A DNA stretch of 64,000 nucleotides, taken from assembly GCF_027213785.1 (NCBI RefSeq), contig NZ_JAPWGO010000009.1, positions 1 through 64,000 of the forward strand, given 5' to 3'. The first letter of the stretch is position 1. Every line of letters starts with the position of its first letter. The notes under the pieces are model-generated. The model was not told the DNA's origin and searched no databases. It saw only the letters and a list, made by a program, of their open reading frames with translations. Origin of the DNA: Limimaricola sp. G21655-S1. Its GTDB lineage: Bacteria > Pseudomonadota > Alphaproteobacteria > Rhodobacterales > Rhodobacteraceae. Position numbers and translations under genes: made by a program. Below, one piece after another: positions 5,603 to 50,652 of this stretch.

Positions 5603-7042
5603 TCACTCGGCGGCGACGCCGGCGCTGGCCGACTGATCGAGATACTCCACGATCGCCGAAGCGCTGTCACGCCCGTCGCGGATCGCCCAGACGACGAGCG
5701 AAGCGCCGCGCACGATGTCGCCCACGGCGAAGACGCCGTCGAGCGAGGTGGCACCGGTGCCGAACTCGGCCCGCACCGTGCCCCAGCGGGTCACTTCCAG
5801 CCCCTCGACGCCCCAGAGCTGCGGCAGGTCCTCGGGCTCGAAGCCCAGCGCCTTGACCACCAGATCGGCCTCTTCGAGGTAATCCGCGCCCTCGATCTTC
5901 TCGGGCATGCGGCGGCCCGTGGCATCCGGCGTGCCGAGGCGCATCTTGTGGACATGCACGCCCTTGACCCCGTCGGGGCCGCATTCGAAGCCCTTCGGAG
6001 CCGAGAGCCAGACCAGTTCGACGCCCTCCTCCTCGGCATTGGCCACCTCGCGCTGGCTGCCCGGCATGTTGGCCCGGTCGCGGCGATAGAGGCACTTCAC
6101 GCTGGTCGCGCCCTGGCGGATCGCGGTGCGCACGCAGTCCATCGCGGTGTCGCCGCCGCCGATCACGACGACCTTCTTGCCCTCGGCGTTCAGCTCGCCG
6201 CTGTCGTATTCCGGCACCTCGTCACCAAAGTTCTTGCGGTTCGAGGCGGTGAGGTAGTCGATGGCGCGGACCACGCCGCCATGGTCGCTGTCGGGCAGGT
6301 CGCGCGACTTGTAGACGCCGGTGGCGATCAGCACCGCGTCGTGCTTGCCACGGATCGCGTCGAAGGAGATGTCCTCGCCGACCTTGCAGTTCAGCACGAA
6401 CTCGACGCCCGACTCCTCGAACTGCCTGGTGCGGCGGTCCACGACCTCCTTCTCGAGCTTGAAGCCGGGGATGCCGTAGGTCATCAGCCCGCCGACGCGG
6501 TCGTAACGGTCATAGACGGTGACCTGCACGCCGGCGCGGCGCAGATAGTCGGCCGCGGCGAGGCCGCCGGGCCCGGCGCCGATGATGCCGACGCTCTCGG
6601 GGCGCTCGCGAGCGGGGCGGATCGGCTGGACCCAGCCCTCCTCCCAGGCGGTGTCAGTGATGTATTTCTCGACCGAGCCGATGGTGACGGTGCCGTGGCC
6701 CGACTGCTCGATCACGCAGTTGCCTTCGCAGAGCCGGTCCTGCGGGCAGATGCGGCCGCAGATCTCGGGGAAGGTGTTGGTCGCCTGGGAGACCTCGTAG
6801 GCCTCCTGCAAACGGCCTTCGGCGGTCAGGCGCAGCCAGTCGGGGATGTTGTTGTGCAGCGGGCAATGCGTCTGGCAGTAGGGCACGCCGCACTGGCTGC
6901 AACGGCTCGACTGCTCGGCCGCCTTGTCGCGGGCGAACTCGGCATAGATCTCGTGGAAGTCCTCGCGCCGCGCGGCCGCCAGACGCTTCTCCGGCATGTC
7001 ACGCGGCACGGACACAAATTTCAGCATCTTGTTTTCGGCCAT
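5603..7042 (-). CDS. gltD: Glutamate synthase (NADPH) small subunit
   Basis: Small (beta) subunit of GOGAT: it takes electrons from NADPH through FAD and 4Fe-4S clusters and passes them to the GltB FMN site. From the chosen start it has 479 aa, the usual length. Two N-terminal cysteine groups (C48/C51/C56/C60 and C95/C99/C105/C109) match the 4Fe-4S ligands. The FAD motif GAGPGG is at 155-160 and the NADPH motif GGGDTA at 295-300. The ATG at 7042 is preferred over an upstream start at 7084 because a strong purine-rich ribosome site (GAGGGAGA) precedes it and the family begins near MAENKMLKF. It is the first gene of the glt operon, behind a region rich in inverted repeats. Confidence 0.97.
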   Translation of the reverse strand: MAENKMLKFVSVPRDMPEKRLAAARREDFHEIYAEFARDKAAEQSSRCSQCGVPYCQTHCPLHNNIPDWLRLTAEGRLQEAYEVSQATNTFPEICGRICPQDRLCEGNCVIEQSGHGTVTIGSVEKYITDTAWEEGWVQPIRPARERPESVGIIGAGPGGLAAADYLRRAGVQVTVYDRYDRVGGLMTYGIPGFKLEKEVVDRRTRQFEESGVEFVLNCKVGEDISFDAIRGKHDAVLIATGVYKSRDLPDSDHGGVVRAIDYLTASNRKNFGDEVPEYDSGELNAEGKKVVVIGGGDTAMDCVRTAIRQGATSVKCLYRRDRANMPGSQREVANAEEEGVELVWLSAPKGFECGPDGVKGVHVHKMRLGTPDATGRRMPEKIEGADYLEEADLVVKALGFEPEDLPQLWGVEGLEVTRWGTVRAEFGTGATSLDGVFAVGDIVRGASLVVWAIRDGRDSASAIVEYLDQSASAGVAAE

Positions 7043-7113
7043 GGCTGGTCTCCCTCTGGCTGGGCGTGCCGAGGGGATAGCCAATGCTTGACCACATTAA
7101 AAGTCAGCATGGT

Positions 7114-7192
7114 TGACCTAATTGGCGCTTTTCGCGCCAATCGGATCGAAATCTTCGGCCCGATTGGCGATTTTAGGTCATAACTAATGACC
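7114..7192 (-). promoter_or_regulatory. Nested inverted repeats upstream of gltD
   Basis: The AT-richer gap between uppP and gltD holds three dyads. ATTGGCGC/GCGCCAAT (7121-7141) has a 5-base spacer. GGTCAT/ATGACC (7176-7192) also has a 5-base spacer. A distant pair TGACCTAA (7114-7121) and TTAGGTCA (7173-7180) encloses the first dyad, and ATTGGCG recurs at 7163. Such spacing is typical of operators for dimeric or multimeric regulators. In other bacteria GOGAT genes answer to Lrp-family and nitrogen regulators, but which protein binds here is inference. Confidence 0.5.
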
Positions 7193-7199
7193 CATAACT

Positions 7200-8006
7200 T
7201 CAGCCAGCTAGGAAAATGCCCAGCAACGCCCCCGCCCCGATCACGATTCGCCACCAGCCGAACAGCGCGTAGCCATGCCGCGACACGTAGCCCAGCAGCC
7301 ATTTCACCACGACCACGGCGGTGACGAAGGCCACGACGAAGCCGATCGCGATCTCGTTGAGCGCGCCCCAGTCGAGCACGTCGCGATTCTGGAACAGGTC
7401 ATAGGCCACGGCCCCGGCCATCGTCGGCATCGACAGGAAGAATGAGAACTCGGCCGCCGCGCGCTTGCCCACGCCCATCGACAGCCCGCCGACGATGGTC
7501 GCGCCCGAGCGCGACACGCCCGGCACCATCGCCAGCACCTGGAAGAAGCCGATCGCCAGCGCCGTTCGGACCGGCAGCCGCATCGCGTCCTCATGGCGCG
7601 GCTCCGGTGCCATGCGGTCCGCGAAGAGCAGCACCACCCCGCCCAGCACCAGCATCACCGCGATCAGGGACGGCGTCTCGAACAGCACCGTCTTGATCAG
7701 GTCATGCGCCAGCACGCCGATCACCGCCGCCGGCAGGAAGGCGATCAGGACCGCCCAGACGAAGCGCCGCGCCGCCGGGTCCGCGGGCGCCGCCCGCAGC
7801 ACGCCCCAGAGCTGTCCGAAATAGACGGTGAGCAGCGCCAGCACCGCGCCGAGCTGGATCACCACCTCGAAGGTGCGCCCGGCGCTCTCGAATCCCAGGA
7901 AGTGCCCCGCCAGCAGCAGGTGCCCGGTCGAGGACACCGGGATGAACTCCGTCAGCCCCTCCAGAAGGCCCAGGAGGAGTGGCAGGAGAATCGTGTCTCC
8001 GGTCAT
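7200..8006 (-). CDS. uppP: Undecaprenyl-diphosphatase (UppP/BacA)
   Basis: Integral membrane phosphatase that converts undecaprenyl diphosphate to undecaprenyl phosphate, recycling the lipid carrier for peptidoglycan and other surface glycans. It also underlies bacitracin tolerance. The 268-aa protein has the family length, about eight hydrophobic segments, and both signatures: the glutamate-rich [15 protein letters not shown] stretch (16-30) and PGVSRSG (162-168) with the essential arginine at 166. It starts 16 bases after the NDUFA9-like gene on the same strand, so the two are probably cotranscribed. Lipid-carrier recycling fits the many glycan genes nearby. Confidence 0.97.
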
Positions 8007-8022
8007 GGCGATGTCCGTCCGT

Positions 8023-9006
8023 TCAGTGGTTGCGCAGGTTCCGCGCCGATTCCTTGATGGCCAGATACTGCCCCGAGGGGCGGAACCGCCACAGGTAGTC
8101 CGGCAGCACGGCCTCCATCGCGATCGGCGACAGGCCCAGATCGGCGAAAGTCTTGGCGCCCGGGCTCACGACATTGTCGCGGCGCAGATTGGCGACCTGA
8201 TCGGCGGTGATCGGCGCCCGCACCAGCCCGAGGCTCAGCGTCTGCACCAGCCCGCCGACGCCGGCCATGATCCGGCCCACGCCGAAGGGCAGCGACAGCA
8301 CGAGGCGACGGCGGCGGATGTAATGCAGCATCTGCACGATCAGCTCGCGGAAGGTATGCACGTCCGGCCCGCCCAGCTCGTAGACCCCCGGCGCGGCGCG
8401 GCCCTCGATCGCCAGCGCCGCGGCATGCGCCACGTCGTCGACATGCACCGGCTGGAACCGGGTGCCGGCCCCGACCACCGGGATCACCGGCGAGATCTGC
8501 GCCATCGAGGCGAAGCGGTTGAAGAACTCGTCCTCGGCTCCGAACAGGATCGAGGGGCGCAGGATCACCGCCTGCGGCATGTGCCGCAGCACGCCCTGCT
8601 CGCCCGCGGCCTTGGAGCGCGCGTATTCGCTCTCGCTGTCGGCATCGGCGCCGATCGCCGAGACATGCACCATCCGGGCCACGCCCAGCTCGGCGGCGAG
8701 GCGGGCGATCCGCTCGGGGCCCTCCTCCTGCACCGCCTTGAAGGTGTTGCGGCCCTTCTCGGCCAGCACGCCCACGCAATTGACCACCGCCTGCGCGCCG
8801 GTCATCGCCGCGCGCACGCTGTCATCGTCGCGGATGTTGCAGAACACCGGCTCGACCTGGCCCACCACGCCGTAGGTGCGCACGAAGAGCGCCTCCTCGG
8901 GGCGGCGGCAGGCCACGCGGACGCGCCAGCCCTGCTGCGCCAGCCGGCGCGTGATATAGCGCCCGAGGAAGCCCGATCCGCCGTAGATGGTCACAAGTCC
9001 GGTCAT
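8023..9006 (-). CDS. NDUFA9-like NAD(P)-binding atypical SDR protein
   Basis: The 327-aa protein is an atypical short-chain dehydrogenase of the group annotated as complex I NDUFA9 subunit family. The N-terminal Rossmann glycine motif GGSGFLG is at 9-15, followed by a nucleoside-diphosphate-sugar epimerase-like fold. In mitochondria NDUFA9 binds NADPH and stabilises the Q-module junction of complex I; in alphaproteobacteria the family is conserved but a role in respiration or quinone biology is inferred. The ATG at 9006 is chosen because the Rossmann strand starts there; the extra 68 codons upstream look non-coding and run towards the tRNA promoter region. It leads into uppP. Confidence 0.85.
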
Positions 9007-45695: not shown

Positions 45696-46169
45696 TCAGC
45701 CGTTGGCGCCGATGAACCACGCATCCTTGTCGATGGTGCGGCTGACCTCGGTGAACAGGTCGGCGGTGTCCTCGTCACCGGCATCGCCCGCTTCCTCCAT
45801 CGCCTTGCGGATTTCGCCGCCGACGAACACGTAGCGCGACTTCAGCTCCTCGACATGCTGCTTGATGTCGGAGATCTCGACCGGATAGGCGTCCAACTGC
45901 GCCTTCTCGGCCGCGACCTCGAGGGTGCCGCGGGCAAAGCCGCCGAGGATCACGGCGCGCTCGGCCATCAGGTCGGCGCCCTCGCGCAGCCGGTCGGCGG
46001 CTTCGTCGAGCAGCTCGTGCACGCCGATGAAGCCCGGGCCCTTGAGGTTCCAATGCGCCTGCTTCACCGCCAGCGTCAGCGCAAGCATGTTGGCAAGGTT
46101 CTTATTGAGCAGATCGACCATCTGGGTGCGGACGTCCTGCGTCAGTTCTCCGGCGAAATTCTCGGGCAT
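45696..46169 (-). CDS. dps: Dps-family ferritin-like protein
   Basis: Twelve-subunit mini-ferritin that oxidises and stores iron with peroxide and may protect DNA in stationary phase. The 157-aa protein has the ferroxidase signature AHWNLKGPGFIGVHELLDEAADRL in pieces (histidines of AHWN and GVHEL, Asp/Glu of LDEAAD). It keeps the four-helix length but lacks a long basic N-terminal tail. The ATG at 46169 is chosen because upstream in-frame codons lack protein character. It is a single gene, with a 351-base gap to the next gene on the plus strand. Confidence 0.93.
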   Translation of the reverse strand: MPENFAGELTQDVRTQMVDLLNKNLANMLALTLAVKQAHWNLKGPGFIGVHELLDEAADRLREGADLMAERAVILGGFARGTLEVAAEKAQLDAYPVEISDIKQHVEELKSRYVFVGGEIRKAMEEAGDAGDEDTADLFTEVSRTIDKDAWFIGANG

Positions 46170-46520
46170 CGTGGTCCTCGTTCGTGACGATAGGTCATGT
46201 GTCAGGCAGCCAACGCCGCGGCGAAGCGTCGGTTCCTGAGCGGTCGGGAGCGGCTGGAGAACCGGCAGGGGACCGGATTCGTCCCTCGAATCGGCCGGGA
46301 AACCGGCAACGATCGCGTCACGCACCATGTAGGCAAAGGCGGTCGCAACCTGAAGTGGCGCTGGCGGCAGGACTCCGCGGCGGGCCCGCGCGCGGGTGAG
46401 CGCGTTCCCGCCGGATCGGCCCTGTCAGGCCGTGCCGTGTTTTTCAGCAGTCGGTCTGCCACGTATCCGGGCAAGGTTCGGGCGCCGGGATCGAAGGGCG
46501 CCCCAAAGAGGAGATAAGAC
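46170..46520. other. 351-base intergenic region between dps and the Glu/Arg-repeat gene
   Basis: No credible gene or RNA is visible. Open frames here (for example a basic 106-residue one) look random. It must hold the dps promoter, where I see only a weak TATCGT near the dps side, and the promoter of the plus-strand gene. A hairpin GGGCGCC/GGCGCCC (46480-46503) stands immediately before that gene's ribosome site AGAGGAG (46507-46513). Confidence 0.5.
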
Positions 46521-47153
46521 ATGATCATCCGCAAGAGCATCCTCGCCGGCCTGTCGGCAGCTTGCATCACCCTCGCGGCGCCGGCCGCGATGGCCGCCCC
46601 GAGCCAGGAAGTCGTCGAAGCCCTGGTTGCCGAGCTCGTGGAGCAAGGCTTCAACGGCGAGATCCGCATCCGCCCGAGCGGCGACCGGATCGAGGTCGAG
46701 GCCAGCGGTCCCAGCGGCTACACCGAGCGGGTCTACAGCGAGGATGGCGGGCTGCTCTTCGAAGAAGAGACCGAGATGGCGGACGGCTCGCGCGTCGAGC
46801 GCGAATACGACAGCGCCGGCCAGCTGGTGTCCGAAGAGTACGAGGCCAGCGACGAGGCCGAAGAGCTTCGCGAGATCGAGGAAGACGAGGCCGAGGAGCG
46901 GCGCGACCGCGAGGAGGACGAGGCCGAAGAGCGTCGCGAGCGCGAAGAGGAAGAAGAGGAAGAGCGCCGCGAGCGCGCGGAAGAGGAAGAAGAGGAGCGC
47001 CGCGACCGCGAGGAAGACGAGGCCGAGGAGCGCCGCGAGCGCGCAGAGGAAGAAGAAGAGGAGCGCCGCGAGCGCGAAGAGGAGCGGCGCGACCGCGAGG
47101 CTGACGAGGAAGAGGAGCGCCGCGAGCGCGAGGAAGAGGCCAACGACGACTGA
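46521..47153 (+). CDS. Secreted PepSY-like protein with long Glu/Arg repeat helix
   Basis: A 210-aa precursor of unknown function. A Sec signal peptide (about 1-26, ending MAA) is followed by a small helix-strand-strand region (about 28-105) resembling PepSY-type periplasmic domains (VVEALVAELVEQGFNGEIRI, YTERVYSEDG). From about 108 the chain is almost entirely Glu and Arg, with some Asp and Ala: eight 11-residue units of the type EERR[ED]R[EA]E[ED]E[EA], with unit 6 three residues short. Such i/i+4 salt bridging predicts a stable single alpha-helix or a hendecad coiled coil of some 15 nm. A ribosome site AGAGGAG and a perfect terminator frame the gene, so it stands alone. A periplasmic spacer or ion-binding protein is possible; this is inference. 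Confidence 0.85.
   Translation: MIIRKSILAGLSAACITLAAPAAMAAPSQEVVEALVAELVEQGFNGEIRIRPSGDRIEVEASGPSGYTERVYSEDGGLLFEEETEMADGSRVEREYDSAGQLVSEEYEASDEAEELREIEEDEAEERRDREEDEAEERREREEEEEEERRERAEEEEEERRDREEDEAEERRERAEEEEEERREREEERRDREADEEEERREREEEANDD
46893..47138 (+). repeat. 33-base tandem repeats encoding 11-residue Glu/Arg units
   Basis: About seven and a half imperfect copies of a 33-base unit built on GAGGAGCGCCGCGAGCGC and GAA/GAG codons, covering codons 125-206. Unit 6 has lost nine bases, so the reading frame is kept. Synonymous GAA/GAG and CGC/CGT/CGG changes between copies show the repeats are not recent identical duplications and that the protein pattern is selected. Confidence 0.85.
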
Positions 47154-47188
47154 GGCCAACGCCCGCGGCCACGGCGCCTCCATCTTCG

Positions 47189-47224
47189 GGACCTGCCGGG
47201 CATTCCGGCAGGTCCTTTGCTTTT
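47189..47224 (+). terminator. Intrinsic terminator of the Glu/Arg-repeat gene
   Basis: GGACCTGCCGG pairs with CCGGCAGGTCC (11 bp) across GCATT and is followed by TTTGCTTTT, 36 bases beyond the stop codon. Confidence 0.88.
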
Positions 47225-47417: not shown

Positions 47418-48962
47418 TCAGGCCATCCACCACCGTTCGCAGATGCGGTTGCTGTCGAGATCGAACACGTTGCCGACCACCTCGGGGTGACCGAGCTTGA
47501 TGTTGTAGCCGTCGACGAAGTTCGCATACATCGGGATCGCCGTCGCGCCCTCCTTCGAGCACAGCGCCTGCATCTCGTGATACATGTCGCGGCGCTTGTC
47601 GCTGTCGAGCTCGGCGCGCGCTTCCTTCAGCAGCGTCTGGAACCGCTCGTTCTCCCAGTGCGTGTCGTTCCACGCCGCGCCGGTCTCGTAGCCCAGCGTG
47701 AACATCCAGTCCTCGGTGACCCGGCCCGACCAGTAGGAGGCGCACCAGGGCTTCTTGATCCAGACGTTGGACCAGTAGCCGTCGGCCGGCTCCTGCACGA
47801 CGTTGATGTCGATGCCGCAGTCGCGGGCCGAGGCCTGGTAGAGAAGCCCCGCGTCGATCGCGCCGGCAAAGGCCGCCTCCGAGACCGAGAGATCGATGCT
47901 CAGGCCGTCGAGCCCGGCCTCCTTCAGCAGCGCCTTCGCCTTCTCGGGATCGTAGTCGTTCTGCTCCAGATCGGCGTGGTAGTACTGGTTCGCCGGGCCG
48001 ATCGGGTGGTCGTTGGCCACCGCCCCGTGGCCCATCAGGATCTTCTCGACCATCTCCTCGCGCCGCACCGCGTGCTTGAGCGCCCGGCGCACCGTGACGT
48101 TGTCCATCGGCGACAGGTCGGTGAGCATCGGGAAGGTGTAGTGCTGGTTGCCGGTCACCTCGTTGAGCGCGAGCTGCGGGTTGGCCTTCAGCAGCGGTTC
48201 GACCTGGAACTCGACGTTGTTCACCGCGTCGACCTGCCCGGTCATCAGCGCCGTCATCCGCGCCGAGCCGTCATTGATCGCGATCACCTCGATCTGGTCG
48301 AACCAGCCGGCCTTGCCGTCCTTGTAGTGGCCGTCGACGCGGCTCAGCAGCGTGCGCACGCCGGGATCGAAGCTCTCGACCTTGTAGAGACCGGTGCCAA
48401 TGCCCTGCGCGATCGCCTCCTCGACGTTCTGATGCGGGTACATCAGCAGGTGATAGTCCGACATCAGGAACGGGAAGTCGGCATTGCCCGCCTCGAGCGT
48501 GAACTGCACCTGGTGATCGCCGAGCTTCTTCATCTCGGTGATCGGCGCGACGATCGGCCGGGCGGCGGATTTCGCATCCTCGTCCAGATGCAGCTTGAGC
48601 GAGGCGATCACGTCGTCGGCGGTGAAGGGCTGGCCGTTGTGGAAGGTCACGCCCTCGCGCAGGTCGAAGGTCCAGGTCTTCGCGTCCGGCGTCGATTCCC
48701 ACGAGGTCGCCAGCTCGCCCACCAGCTCGCCATTGGCGGCGATCTCGGTCAGGCAGTCGAACACCGCGCCATAGGCGGTGACGATCATGTAGGTGTCGGA
48801 ATGGGTGCGCCCGTCCCAGCTGTCGGAGGTATTGGCGCCCGCGAGGCCGAGCCTCAGCGTGCCGCCGCGCGACTGCGCGCGAAGCGGCAGGCCGGTGACC
48901 GACAGAAGGCCCGCGGCGGCCCCGGACCTGAGCAATCCCCGGCGGCTGATCTGTGGCAACAT
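47418..48962 (-). CDS. Peptide/nickel-type ABC transporter substrate-binding protein
   Basis: A 514-aa periplasmic solute-binding protein of family 5 (OppA/DppA/NikA type). The leader has a Tat-like twin-arginine motif (ISRRGLLRSG, Arg at 7-8) and a hydrophobic stretch ending LRAQ. Family features include EGVTFHNGQPFTADDVIASL and the AKALLKEAG stretch. The ATG at 48962 follows GAGGGAGA; in-frame codons upstream overlap the ATPase gene end and are non-coding. It is the last gene of the permease-permease-ATPase-binding protein operon. The substrate could be a peptide, an opine or another small solute and cannot be assigned. Confidence 0.93.
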   Translation of the reverse strand: MLPQISRRGLLRSGAAAGLLSVTGLPLRAQSRGGTLRLGLAGANTSDSWDGRTHSDTYMIVTAYGAVFDCLTEIAANGELVGELATSWESTPDAKTWTFDLREGVTFHNGQPFTADDVIASLKLHLDEDAKSAARPIVAPITEMKKLGDHQVQFTLEAGNADFPFLMSDYHLLMYPHQNVEEAIAQGIGTGLYKVESFDPGVRTLLSRVDGHYKDGKAGWFDQIEVIAINDGSARMTALMTGQVDAVNNVEFQVEPLLKANPQLALNEVTGNQHYTFPMLTDLSPMDNVTVRRALKHAVRREEMVEKILMGHGAVANDHPIGPANQYYHADLEQNDYDPEKAKALLKEAGLDGLSIDLSVSEAAFAGAIDAGLLYQASARDCGIDINVVQEPADGYWSNVWIKKPWCASYWSGRVTEDWMFTLGYETGAAWNDTHWENERFQTLLKEARAELDSDKRRDMYHEMQALCSKEGATAIPMYANFVDGYNIKLGHPEVVGNVFDLDSNRICERWWMA

Positions 48963-49008
48963 GTGTCTCTCCCTCTTGATTCCCTCTCGGCCCACCGGAC
49001 CGATTCGC

Positions 49009-50652
49009 TTACATCTTATCAGTCGCCGCCTCGCCCAAGGCCTCAACTCTCCGTTCGGCCAGAAGCCGGTCGAGCCAGTCGGGATCCATCTCGGGCACCG
49101 AGGACAGCAGCAGGTCGGTGTAGGGGTGGTGCGGCGGCGTGAACATCTCGGTCTTGGGACCCTGCTCGATCACCCGGCCCTCCTTCATCACCACCACCTC
49201 GTCGGCGATCGCCTTCACCGTGGCGAGATCGTGGGTGATGAACATGTAGCTCAGCCCGAGCTCGTCCTGCAGCCGGGCGAGGAGCTTGAGGATGCCCTCG
49301 GCCACCAGCTGGTCGAGCGCGCTCGTCACCTCGTCGCAGATGATCAGCCGCGGCTCGGCGGCGAGCGCGCGGGCGATGCCGACGCGTTGCTTCTGCCCGC
49401 CCGACAGCTCGCCCGGCAGCCGGTCGCGGTAGATGGCGGGGTCGAGCTCGATCTGCTCGAGCAGCTCGTCGACGCGGGCCGCCAGCCGGCGCCCCTTGAG
49501 CCCGGAATAGAACCGCACCGGCCGCCCGACGATCTGCGCGATGCTCTGGCGCGGGTTCAGCGCGGTATCGGCCATCTGGTAGATCATCTGGATCTGCCGC
49601 AGCTGGTCCTTGGAGCGCTGGCGGTAGCTCGGCGGCAGCGCCTCGCCCTCGAAGCGCACCACACCGCTCCTTGGCGGCAGCAGCCCGGTGATCACCCGCG
49701 CCGTCGTCGACTTGCCCGAGCCGCTCTCGCCCACCACCGCCACGGTGCGGCCGGGATGGATGTCGAAGCTCACCTCGTTCAACACGACCTGTTCGCCGTA
49801 AGCCGCCGTCACCCCCTCGACCGCCAAGATCGGCACGCTCTCCGGGCCGGGCTTCGGCTTTTCGGGGCGGTGATAGCCGCGCACCGCCCAGAGCGACTTG
49901 GTGTAGTCCTCGCGCGGTGCATCGAGCATCTCGCGCGTCGGCGCGGTCTCGACCTCGTCGCCCCGGAGCAGCACCTTGATGCGGTCGGCCATCTGCGCCA
50001 CCACCGCGAGGTCGTGGGTGATGTAGATCGCCGAGGTGCCGAACTGGTCGACGATGTCGCGGATCGCCGCCAGCACCTCGATCTGGGTGGTCACGTCGAG
50101 CGCGGTGGTCGGCTCGTCGAAGATGATCAGGTCGGGGCGGCAGGACATCGCCATCGCGGTCATCGCGCGCTGCAACTGCCCGCCCGAGACCTGGTGCGGA
50201 TAGCGAAAGCCGATCTCCTCGGGGTTGGGAAGCCTGAGCTTGGCATAAAGCTCGATCGCGTCCTCGATGCTTTCGCCCCGGTCCTGCACGCCGTGGCGCA
50301 CCGGTGCCTCGACATGCTGGTCGATCAGCTTGTGGGCGGGGTTGAAACTCGCCGCCGCCGATTGCGCGACATAGGCGATGCGGCGGCCCAGCAGCGAGCG
50401 CTTCTCCTCGGTCGAGGCGTTCATCAGGTCGATGCCGTCGAACATCACCGAGCCGCCCGAGATCCGCACCCCGTCGCGCACATAGCCCATCGCGGCGAGG
50501 CCCAGCGTCGATTTGCCGGCCCCGGATTCGCCGATCAGCCCCAGCACCTCGCCCCGGCCCAGCGTCAGGTCAACGCCGTTGATGATCGGGTGCCACTCCT
50601 CGTCTGAGCGGCCCTCGATCCGCAGGTCGCGGATTTCCAGAAGCGGCGTCAC
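49009..50652 (-). CDS. Fused dual ATPase of peptide ABC importer (DppD-DppF type)
   Basis: A 547-aa protein with two complete ABC ATPase domains in one chain, equivalent to DppD plus DppF. The first has Walker A GESGAGKS at 41-48, signature [10 protein letters not shown] and Walker [13 protein letters not shown]. The second has Walker [10 protein letters not shown] near 307, signature [10 protein letters not shown] and Walker [13 protein letters not shown]. Each is followed by the oligopeptide-transporter C-terminal region ([10 protein letters not shown] near the end). The GTG start overlaps the upstream permease stop in GTGA. It powers the importer encoded by its neighbours. Confidence 0.94.

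Follow-up and report, generated by a model that had tools for sequence, protein, structure and literature searches.

A PepSY_2-like secreted protein of Limimaricola with a Glu/Arg repeat tail, and its relatives beside a LuxR-type membrane regulator

What purpose would a small secreted protein have for a tail of some 100 residues that are almost all glutamate and arginine? The gene that raises this question lies in a 64-kb stretch of Limimaricola DNA, the whole of which is called the window here. A preliminary description of the gene had read it as a signal peptide, a PepSY-like domain and an 11-residue repeat, and had proposed that the repeat forms a rigid single alpha-helix or a hendecad coiled coil. 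The features on which our analysis rests are listed below.

46521-47153, plus strand: open reading frame of 210 aa with an ATG start
46507-46513, plus strand: Shine-Dalgarno-like AGAGGAG, read directly, its end 7 bases 5' of the ATG
46521-46598, plus strand: signal peptide, about residues 1-26, cleavage site placed by eye
46599-46850, plus strand: PepSY_2-like domain, residues 27-110, one helix and six strands in the model, weak PepSY_2 match
46851-47138, plus strand: Glu/Arg hendecad array, residues 111-206, eight 11-residue units and one 8-residue unit
47082-47105, plus strand: short unit, residues 188-195, nine bases short, in the same place in L. soesokkakensis
46851-47147, plus strand: predicted continuous helix, residues 111-209 (AlphaFold2)
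47188-47216, plus strand: intrinsic terminator, 13-pair stem and T-rich tail
45696-46328, minus strand: Dps/ferritin-like neighbour, divergent (Pfam Ferritin, E 1e-25), not thought to be part of the system
47418-49046, minus strand: family 5 extracellular solute-binding protein, convergent (Pfam SBP_bac_5, E 4.2e-73), not thought to be part of the system

Minus-strand open reading frames of 252, 264 and 364 aa overlap the gene. The signals and the conservation of the plus-strand frame lead us to take it as the gene: compared with the orthologue in genome G299, which is very probably L. soesokkakensis and is so named below, residues 1-111 have a dN of 0.004 and a dS of 0.026, and the first 120 residues are 98% identical. 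The signal peptide is marked by a hydrophobic segment (hydrophobicity is highest over the 19 residues from residue 7, mean 1.88), and pLDDT is below 50 over residues 1-24. The mature protein, residues 27-210, contains 72 Glu, 14 Asp and 31 Arg and no Lys, giving a net charge of -55. A lipoprotein was considered and rejected: Cys15 has Ser at -3, which is not the usual lipobox, and by reading the cysteine is absent there in three of the four congeneric orthologues. No plasmid match was found for the N-terminal 111 residues at E ≤ 0.01.

By score, the domain is PepSY_2-like and not a member of PepSY_2. The first 115 residues match PepSY_2 (PF13670) at E 0.05 and 14.1 bits, under the gathering cut-off of 24.3, and a Pfam search with the full-length protein returned no PepSY_2 match at E ≤ 10. 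Homology to PepSY_2 is reached through a chain of relatives, made up of member matches, identity between relatives and the domain tree described below. PepSY_2 is matched at E ≤ 1 by 16 of 24 aligned members (best 9.5e-7), a paralogue in the same genome scores 28.9 bits and so passes the 24.3 cut-off, and the closest relative outside Limimaricola matches the window protein at E 1.5e-13 with 41% identity. The description of a secreted PepSY-like protein is supported, the PepSY likeness being weak.

The PepSY fold is a helix packed on an antiparallel sheet, and the domain modelled alone is a helix with six strands (mean pLDDT 85.2). A Foldseek search of this model against the PDB (350,542 chains) gave no match at E ≤ 0.001. 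Its top two entries, YpmB (E 0.096), which we take to be a PepSY protein, and UipA (E 0.29), had TM-scores of 0.35-0.36, and with such E-values they are supportive only. The window protein has no match in NCBIfam, and the full model has none at E ≤ 0.001 in a search of viral structures. Sequence matches in the PDB obtained with the profile (ribosomal S3 and designed proteins; best E 0.0019) were judged to be chance.

The repeat array is real and beyond chance. Tandem Repeats Finder reports a 33-bp period at 46851-47077 (6.9 copies, score 237) and a 99-bp period with a score of 317. Its other rows are the same array (167, 74 and 60) and, at the edge of the window, a run of poly-C (232); every row in the rest of the 64-kb window scores 62 or less. 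That edge, positions 1-179, is almost pure poly-C at the end of contig C584 and looks like a sequencing or assembly artefact. As first described, about 100 residues are almost wholly Glu and Arg with an 11-residue period: 79 of the 99 residues from 111 to 209 are one or the other, the remainder being mostly Asp (9) and Ala (8), in eight full units and one short one. The 96-residue array itself holds 62 acidic and 25 basic residues for a net charge of -37, and its two hydrophobic residues (1 Leu, 1 Ile) both fall within the first unit. The loss of nine bases had been assigned to unit 6. The short unit is there, but it is the eighth counted from residue 111, and the sixth only if the count starts at 133.

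For the full protein, AlphaFold2 predicts one continuous helix over residues 111-209, that is 99 residues, or 14.85 nm at 0.15 nm per residue. Its pLDDT is 97-98 over residues 121-200 and 84-89 in the end blocks, in a model with a mean pLDDT of 83.3 and a pTM of 0.47. The alignment behind this model consisted of two nearly identical rows, the window protein and one close orthologue, and AlphaFold2 readily yields helices for Glu/Arg-rich sequence, so the predicted helix is not proof of one. The composition agrees with that of an ER/K-type single alpha-helix, namely a long Glu/Arg stretch with 2 hydrophobic residues in 96 that is predicted to be helical. The tail is thus predicted to be one straight alpha-helix, probably a single charged helix. 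Of the rigid helix or hendecad coiled coil of about 15 nm first proposed, the continuous 99-residue helix stands as a prediction and the coiled coil is contradicted by the near absence of hydrophobic residues.

The helix had also been argued from charge pairing at i/i+4, and that argument proves weak. Glu-to-Arg i+4 pairs are in mild excess in the window protein (20, against 15.6 ± 2.1 in composition shuffles) and number 20 against 15.0 ± 2.1 in L. soesokkakensis, whereas three congeners fall below their shuffles (5 vs 6.9, 6 vs 9.6 and 8 vs 14.3). When all opposite-charge pairs of the window protein are counted, z is 1.2. Nine copies of the consensus unit hold 52 such pairs, below the shuffled-unit mean of 62.3, and 83% of 3000 shuffles reach 52. 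The suggestion that the helix is sized to the depth of the periplasm is not supported by comparison within the genus, where the Glu/Arg/Lys stretches of five orthologues are 46, 59, 84, 96 and 96 residues long.

Relatives of the protein are numerous. Within the genus, the window-type gene occurs in five of eight genomes and in none of G296, G297 and G298. NCBI taxonomy places Limimaricola in the Paracoccaceae, Rhodobacterales; the family of our genome counts we take to be the wider Rhodobacteraceae of GTDB, sampled as 295 genomes from 294 genera. A single-sequence search finds matches at E ≤ 0.001 in 27 of these 295 genomes, and a profile built from 24 members finds matches at E ≤ 1e-5 in 146 (145 of the 294 sampled genera), some of which could rest on the acidic end columns that the profile includes. 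The relatives, also small and secreted, share this domain, and what follows it is generally a long acidic tail, in most cases poly-Asp or a mix of Asp with Arg, Gly or Ser. No system of this architecture had been known to the preliminary description. In the light of these relatives, the repeat protein is a variant within a family defined by a PepSY-like domain and an acidic tail, and not a lone architecture. The repeat count that it had proposed as a check gives, by eye, about 4 and 5 units in G107 and G300 and 8 in G295, so that unit number ranges from about 4 to 9 in the genus.

What the family keeps is best seen in its tails. The comparison covered 138 tails, each 25 residues or longer, taken from 141 domain-bearing open reading frames in 78 loci, with the profile cut before the acidic columns. 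The loci were L033-L060, L092, L094, L095, L101-L147 and the window, with a PepSY frame in 78 of 79; L147, an arbitrary stretch of G026 picked without a known match, has no PepSY frame by reading, and L093 and other overlapping loci were excluded. Net charge is -10 or lower in 127 of the 138 tails, with a median charge of -37.5 and a median length of 82.5 residues, and Asp outnumbers Glu in the acidic core of 129. On a helix-cost scale, a 40-residue stretch with a mean cost of 0.40 or less is found only in the five Limimaricola orthologues, the next tail having 0.43. Three of these five have Asp-rich sequence after a Glu/Arg/Lys stretch of 46, 59 or 84 residues (net -1, -3 and -7). The window protein and its L. 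soesokkakensis orthologue have lost this Asp-rich part, and in them the hendecads supply net charges of -37 and -38; tail charge has thus been kept through changes in sequence, length and predicted structure. Across the tails compared, it is net negative charge that the family keeps, and not sequence, length or predicted helicity.

Tails shorter than 25 residues occur in 3 of the 141 frames. The long arm is not universal, since a few members (L055, an 86-aa protein; L038, a 111-aa protein; and L057) have very short acidic tails. The tails of the relatives in L102, L105, L007 and L012 are, by eye, tandem repeats as well, built of RDDD, GEDDDD or a 12-residue Ser/Asp/Gly/Glu unit. The L. soesokkakensis genome has two other, similar PepSY paralogues (L094, 5662-6216, minus strand; L095, 6095-6736, minus strand), with Lys/Gly/Asp tails, that of L094 having a net charge of +4.

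In other genera, relatives of the gene have a characteristic setting. Neighbourhoods were fetched for 24 of the 25 non-Limimaricola genomes found by the single-sequence search; G041 (locus L016) was left out, as its match lies in a frame that is not PepSY-like in look. A LuxR-type gene is present in all 24 loci, trpB in 22, DUF2237 and pth in 21 each, trpF in 18 and rplY in 16. The recurring order is trpF, trpB, a first PepSY gene (pepsyA), a second one (pepsyB) and the LuxR-type gene, then, convergent to these, DUF2237, pth and rplY. By reading, at least two PepSY frames lie in 22 of the 24. In one locus (G229, L041, 9834-11557, minus strand), two further PepSY-like frames lie on the opposite strand, just past the LuxR-type gene. 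Two hydrophobic stretches, which are predicted membrane segments, lie close to the start of the regulator, and its DNA-binding part matches the LuxR-type (GerE) family at E 1.1e-4 and 22.2 bits, just below the 23.5 cut-off.

The same pairing holds across the family. The regulator is found at E ≤ 1e-15 in 169 of the 295 genomes, and together with a PepSY match in 142 of the 146 genomes that have one; 27 genomes have the regulator alone and 4 the PepSY match alone (Fisher p 9e-50 over 295 genomes of 294 genera, uncorrected for ancestry). Among the matches listed for both, which cover 99 genomes, the two lie within 5 kb on one contig in 97 and on different contigs in the other two. This count uses one PepSY row per genome, and for the window's own genome that row is the copy on contig C220 described below and not the better-scoring window copy; without that genome it is 96 of 98 among the matches listed. 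In the open-licence literature we found no description of PepSY genes paired with a LuxR-type membrane regulator. The linkage is a hint of an envelope-sensing system, one that has been little studied, and not of a structural strut; it is a more interesting lead than the tail itself. A second, more distant LuxR-type protein was seen in G300 (L097, 7347-7973, minus strand; 41-43% identical over about 75 residues), apparently with hydrophobic segments ahead of its DNA-binding part, and similar matches lie at G000:C329:203842 and G299:C15:68158.

The window gene stands outside this arrangement. Its four neighbours on one side are the genes for Dps, DUF2165, GST and RimP, and on the other those for the solute-binding protein, an ABC ATPase, a permease and a hydrolase; no kinase, response regulator or LuxR family is found among these eight. 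The near neighbourhood is common to the window genome and L. soesokkakensis. In G107, G295 and G300, the window-type gene instead adjoins genes for an NAD(P)-binding protein and oligopeptidase F. As the location differs between the two groups, neither neighbourhood is likely to define the function of the gene. A close copy of the regulator is absent from G107, G295 and G300 (best E 1.7e-6, 1.9e-6 and 3.5e-13), so three of the five carriers show that the window gene can exist without it.

The window's own genome does have the usual arrangement elsewhere. On contig C220 (L092, 46000-60000, about 6402-8503) a pepsyA-like gene, whose product combines two PepSY domains with a poly-Asp tail, is accompanied by a second PepSY gene and a membrane LuxR-type gene, which makes the window gene an extra copy. 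In a tree of 59 domains (64 columns, with 28 of 56 inner branches open), the five Limimaricola genes group together (100/99) within a 16-row clade (98/94) whose 11 other members are all, by reading, the first PepSY gene of a pair. Sequence and place in the tree mark the window gene as a pepsyA-type copy that has been displaced.

The array itself has been rebuilt rapidly. Aligned position by position with that of L. soesokkakensis, it has a dS of 0.51 and a dN of 0.083. The high positional dS arises because units have shifted between the species: unit 144 of the window protein is identical to unit 155 of L. soesokkakensis, units 155 and 166 are each two bases from its 166 and 177, and unit 177 is one base from its 144. 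Gain and loss of units would explain the shift, and conversion between units might do so too. Both proteins are still 210 residues long. With the units shifted, we dropped a position-by-position test of selection and used pN/pS among units instead. Among the six full units it is 0.18 in the window protein and 0.17 in L. soesokkakensis, and among seven units in G295 it is 0.34. In neutral simulations with a star-shaped history, run under 16 settings, the window protein's value was reached in at most 2 of 297-300 runs each, at a simulated pS of 0.16-0.41, which is lower than the observed 0.55. The reading of synonymous variation between units as a sign of selection on the protein therefore holds. 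The low values, set against these simulations, show that residue type is under selection and unit identity is not.

How might these observations fit together? Sequence comparison establishes the family, its locus and the near-universal acidity of its tails, and it places a helix-prone Glu/Arg stretch, among the tails examined, in the Limimaricola orthologues only. The explanation that we favour, tentatively and with a little less than even confidence, is that the gene encodes a soluble periplasmic PepSY_2-like protein, a displaced pepsyA copy, whose polyanionic, cation-collecting arm has been turned into a charged helix. The partner onto which the PepSY-like domain would dock is probably a membrane signalling protein, by the example of DbfQ and DbfS. 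The charge of the arm would let it gather cations close to the envelope, whether Ca, Mg, Fe, other metals or cationic peptides, and in most genera the LuxR-type regulator would be the likely output. In Limimaricola, turnover of 33-bp units would have made a stiff charged helix out of a flexible Asp-rich arm with little change in net charge, selection acting on residue type and not on exact length. That the arm works by charge is suggested by its conserved composition; docking or sensing by the domain and cation collection by the arm are proposed by analogy with DbfQ and LanP. An Arg in every unit should weaken cation binding relative to poly-Asp. Against this explanation we count the lack of a signalling gene among the four neighbours of the window gene on either side, the three of five carrier genomes without a close copy of the LuxR-type regulator, the 27 of 169 regulator genomes that have no PepSY match, the limits of the helix model and of the profile given above, and the few relatives that are almost tail-less. 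A bolder version is possible and, in our judgement, doubtful: widely in the family, one or two periplasmic PepSY proteins, their polyanionic tails serving as cation sensors, would act on the LuxR-type regulator in one-component envelope sensing, and one Limimaricola PepSY protein would have left the locus and exchanged a disordered Asp arm for a stiff Glu/Arg helix of roughly equal charge.

Several other readings of the tail have to be weighed against the charged arm. It could be largely a by-product of repeat slippage, the acidic codons being GC-rich, and do little more for the exported protein than keep it soluble or adapted to salt. The wide variation in tail length and unit type (RDDD, GEDDDD, 12-residue Ser/Asp, 11-residue Glu/Arg) and the fast unit turnover implied by an array dS far above that of residues 1-111 (0.51 vs 0.026) would suit such drift. 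We consider it rather unlikely, given a net charge of -10 or lower in 127 of 138 tails and among-unit pN/pS values of 0.18, 0.17 and 0.34, the window protein's own lying well under the neutral simulations. We give distinctly less weight to a strut or ruler, a rigid single alpha-helix that bridges the periplasm or holds the PepSY domain off the membrane. In its favour, the helix is predicted to run unbroken for 99 residues (about 15 nm), and nine units and 210 residues are retained in both of the closest species despite the exchange of units. The three congeners, however, have Glu/Arg/Lys stretches of only 46, 59 and 84 residues that give way to Asp-rich sequence, the other tails compared are not helix-prone on the propensity scale, and no anchor is seen at the free end of the helix, which ends in ANDD.

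Two further possibilities depart from the charged arm in other directions. The gene might work with the divergent dps-like gene in metal stress, for instance by retaining iron or other metals in the periplasm; it adjoins that Ferritin-family gene in the window and, from the order of open reading frames alone, in L. soesokkakensis. The orthologues in G107, G295 and G300 lie elsewhere, beside the NAD(P)-binding protein and oligopeptidase F genes, and we hold this partnership to be very improbable. Least credible of all is an oligomer of two or more molecules with their tails wound around one another as a hendecad coiled coil. The 11-residue period invites that idea, as does the hendecad frame, in which Ala and Asp each gather on one face (resultants 0.94 and 0.92). 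We rejected it for want of a conventional hydrophobic core: the only two hydrophobic residues sit in the first unit, and each array has a net charge of -37.

If the charged-arm explanation is correct in its wider form, the family would extend PepSY control from two-component to one-component signalling. The Limimaricola orthologues, in which charge is kept and predicted shape is changed, would then permit a direct test of tail charge against tail shape, and the copy in this genus would be a natural experiment that separates the two.

Known systems resemble the window protein in part. TolA and TonB have charged periplasmic helices with an inner-membrane anchor and a C-terminal domain; the window protein shares a predicted charged helix with them, but neither an anchor nor a C-terminal domain is seen. 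Single alpha-helix domains are closer to a balance of acidic and basic residues, unlike the window array, where acidic residues outnumber basic ones by more than two to one (62 vs 25). The array is also terminal and not, as in single alpha-helix proteins, a linker between two domains. It resembles the ER/K single alpha-helix, as set out in the parts of two reports drawn on here, in being a long, near-pure Glu/Arg stretch that is predicted to be helical and has few hydrophobic residues (PMC5347031, PMC5378345). The same sources report, in those parts, single alpha-helix domains from bacteria as well (PMC5378345) and aggregation of the Arg-rich designed sequence AEEERRR (PMC5347031).

Among PepSY proteins, UipA is the second-ranked Foldseek match of the domain (E 0.29), a weak match that is non-significant alone. 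UipA has reportedly been shown to bind metal. LanP (Lanpepsy) is periplasmic, has two PepSY domains and binds lanthanides at sites with Glu and Asp, as summarised in part of a review (PMC11845868). It shares its periplasmic PepSY nature with the window protein, and the portion of the review used here describes no long charged tail for it (PMC11845868).

The closest parallel is DbfQ of Vibrio cholerae, which the section of the report consulted describes as a small Sec-secreted periplasmic PepSY protein of 135 aa with a single domain that acts on a histidine kinase (PMC12714742). The window protein is likewise a small secreted PepSY-type protein, predicted to be periplasmic; its acidic tail has no counterpart mentioned for DbfQ in that section (PMC12714742). 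The window copy adjoins neither a histidine kinase nor a LuxR-type regulator among its four neighbours per side. According to the same section, PepSY genes lie near two-component genes more than 60 times as often as expected, sometimes two in tandem (PMC12714742). Genes for relatives of the window protein likewise sit beside one for membrane signalling, and often two PepSY genes occur there in tandem, like PA2659/PA2658 of Pseudomonas aeruginosa (PMC12714742). In these relatives the linked gene encodes not a histidine kinase, as for DbfQ, but a one-component, membrane-anchored LuxR-type regulator.
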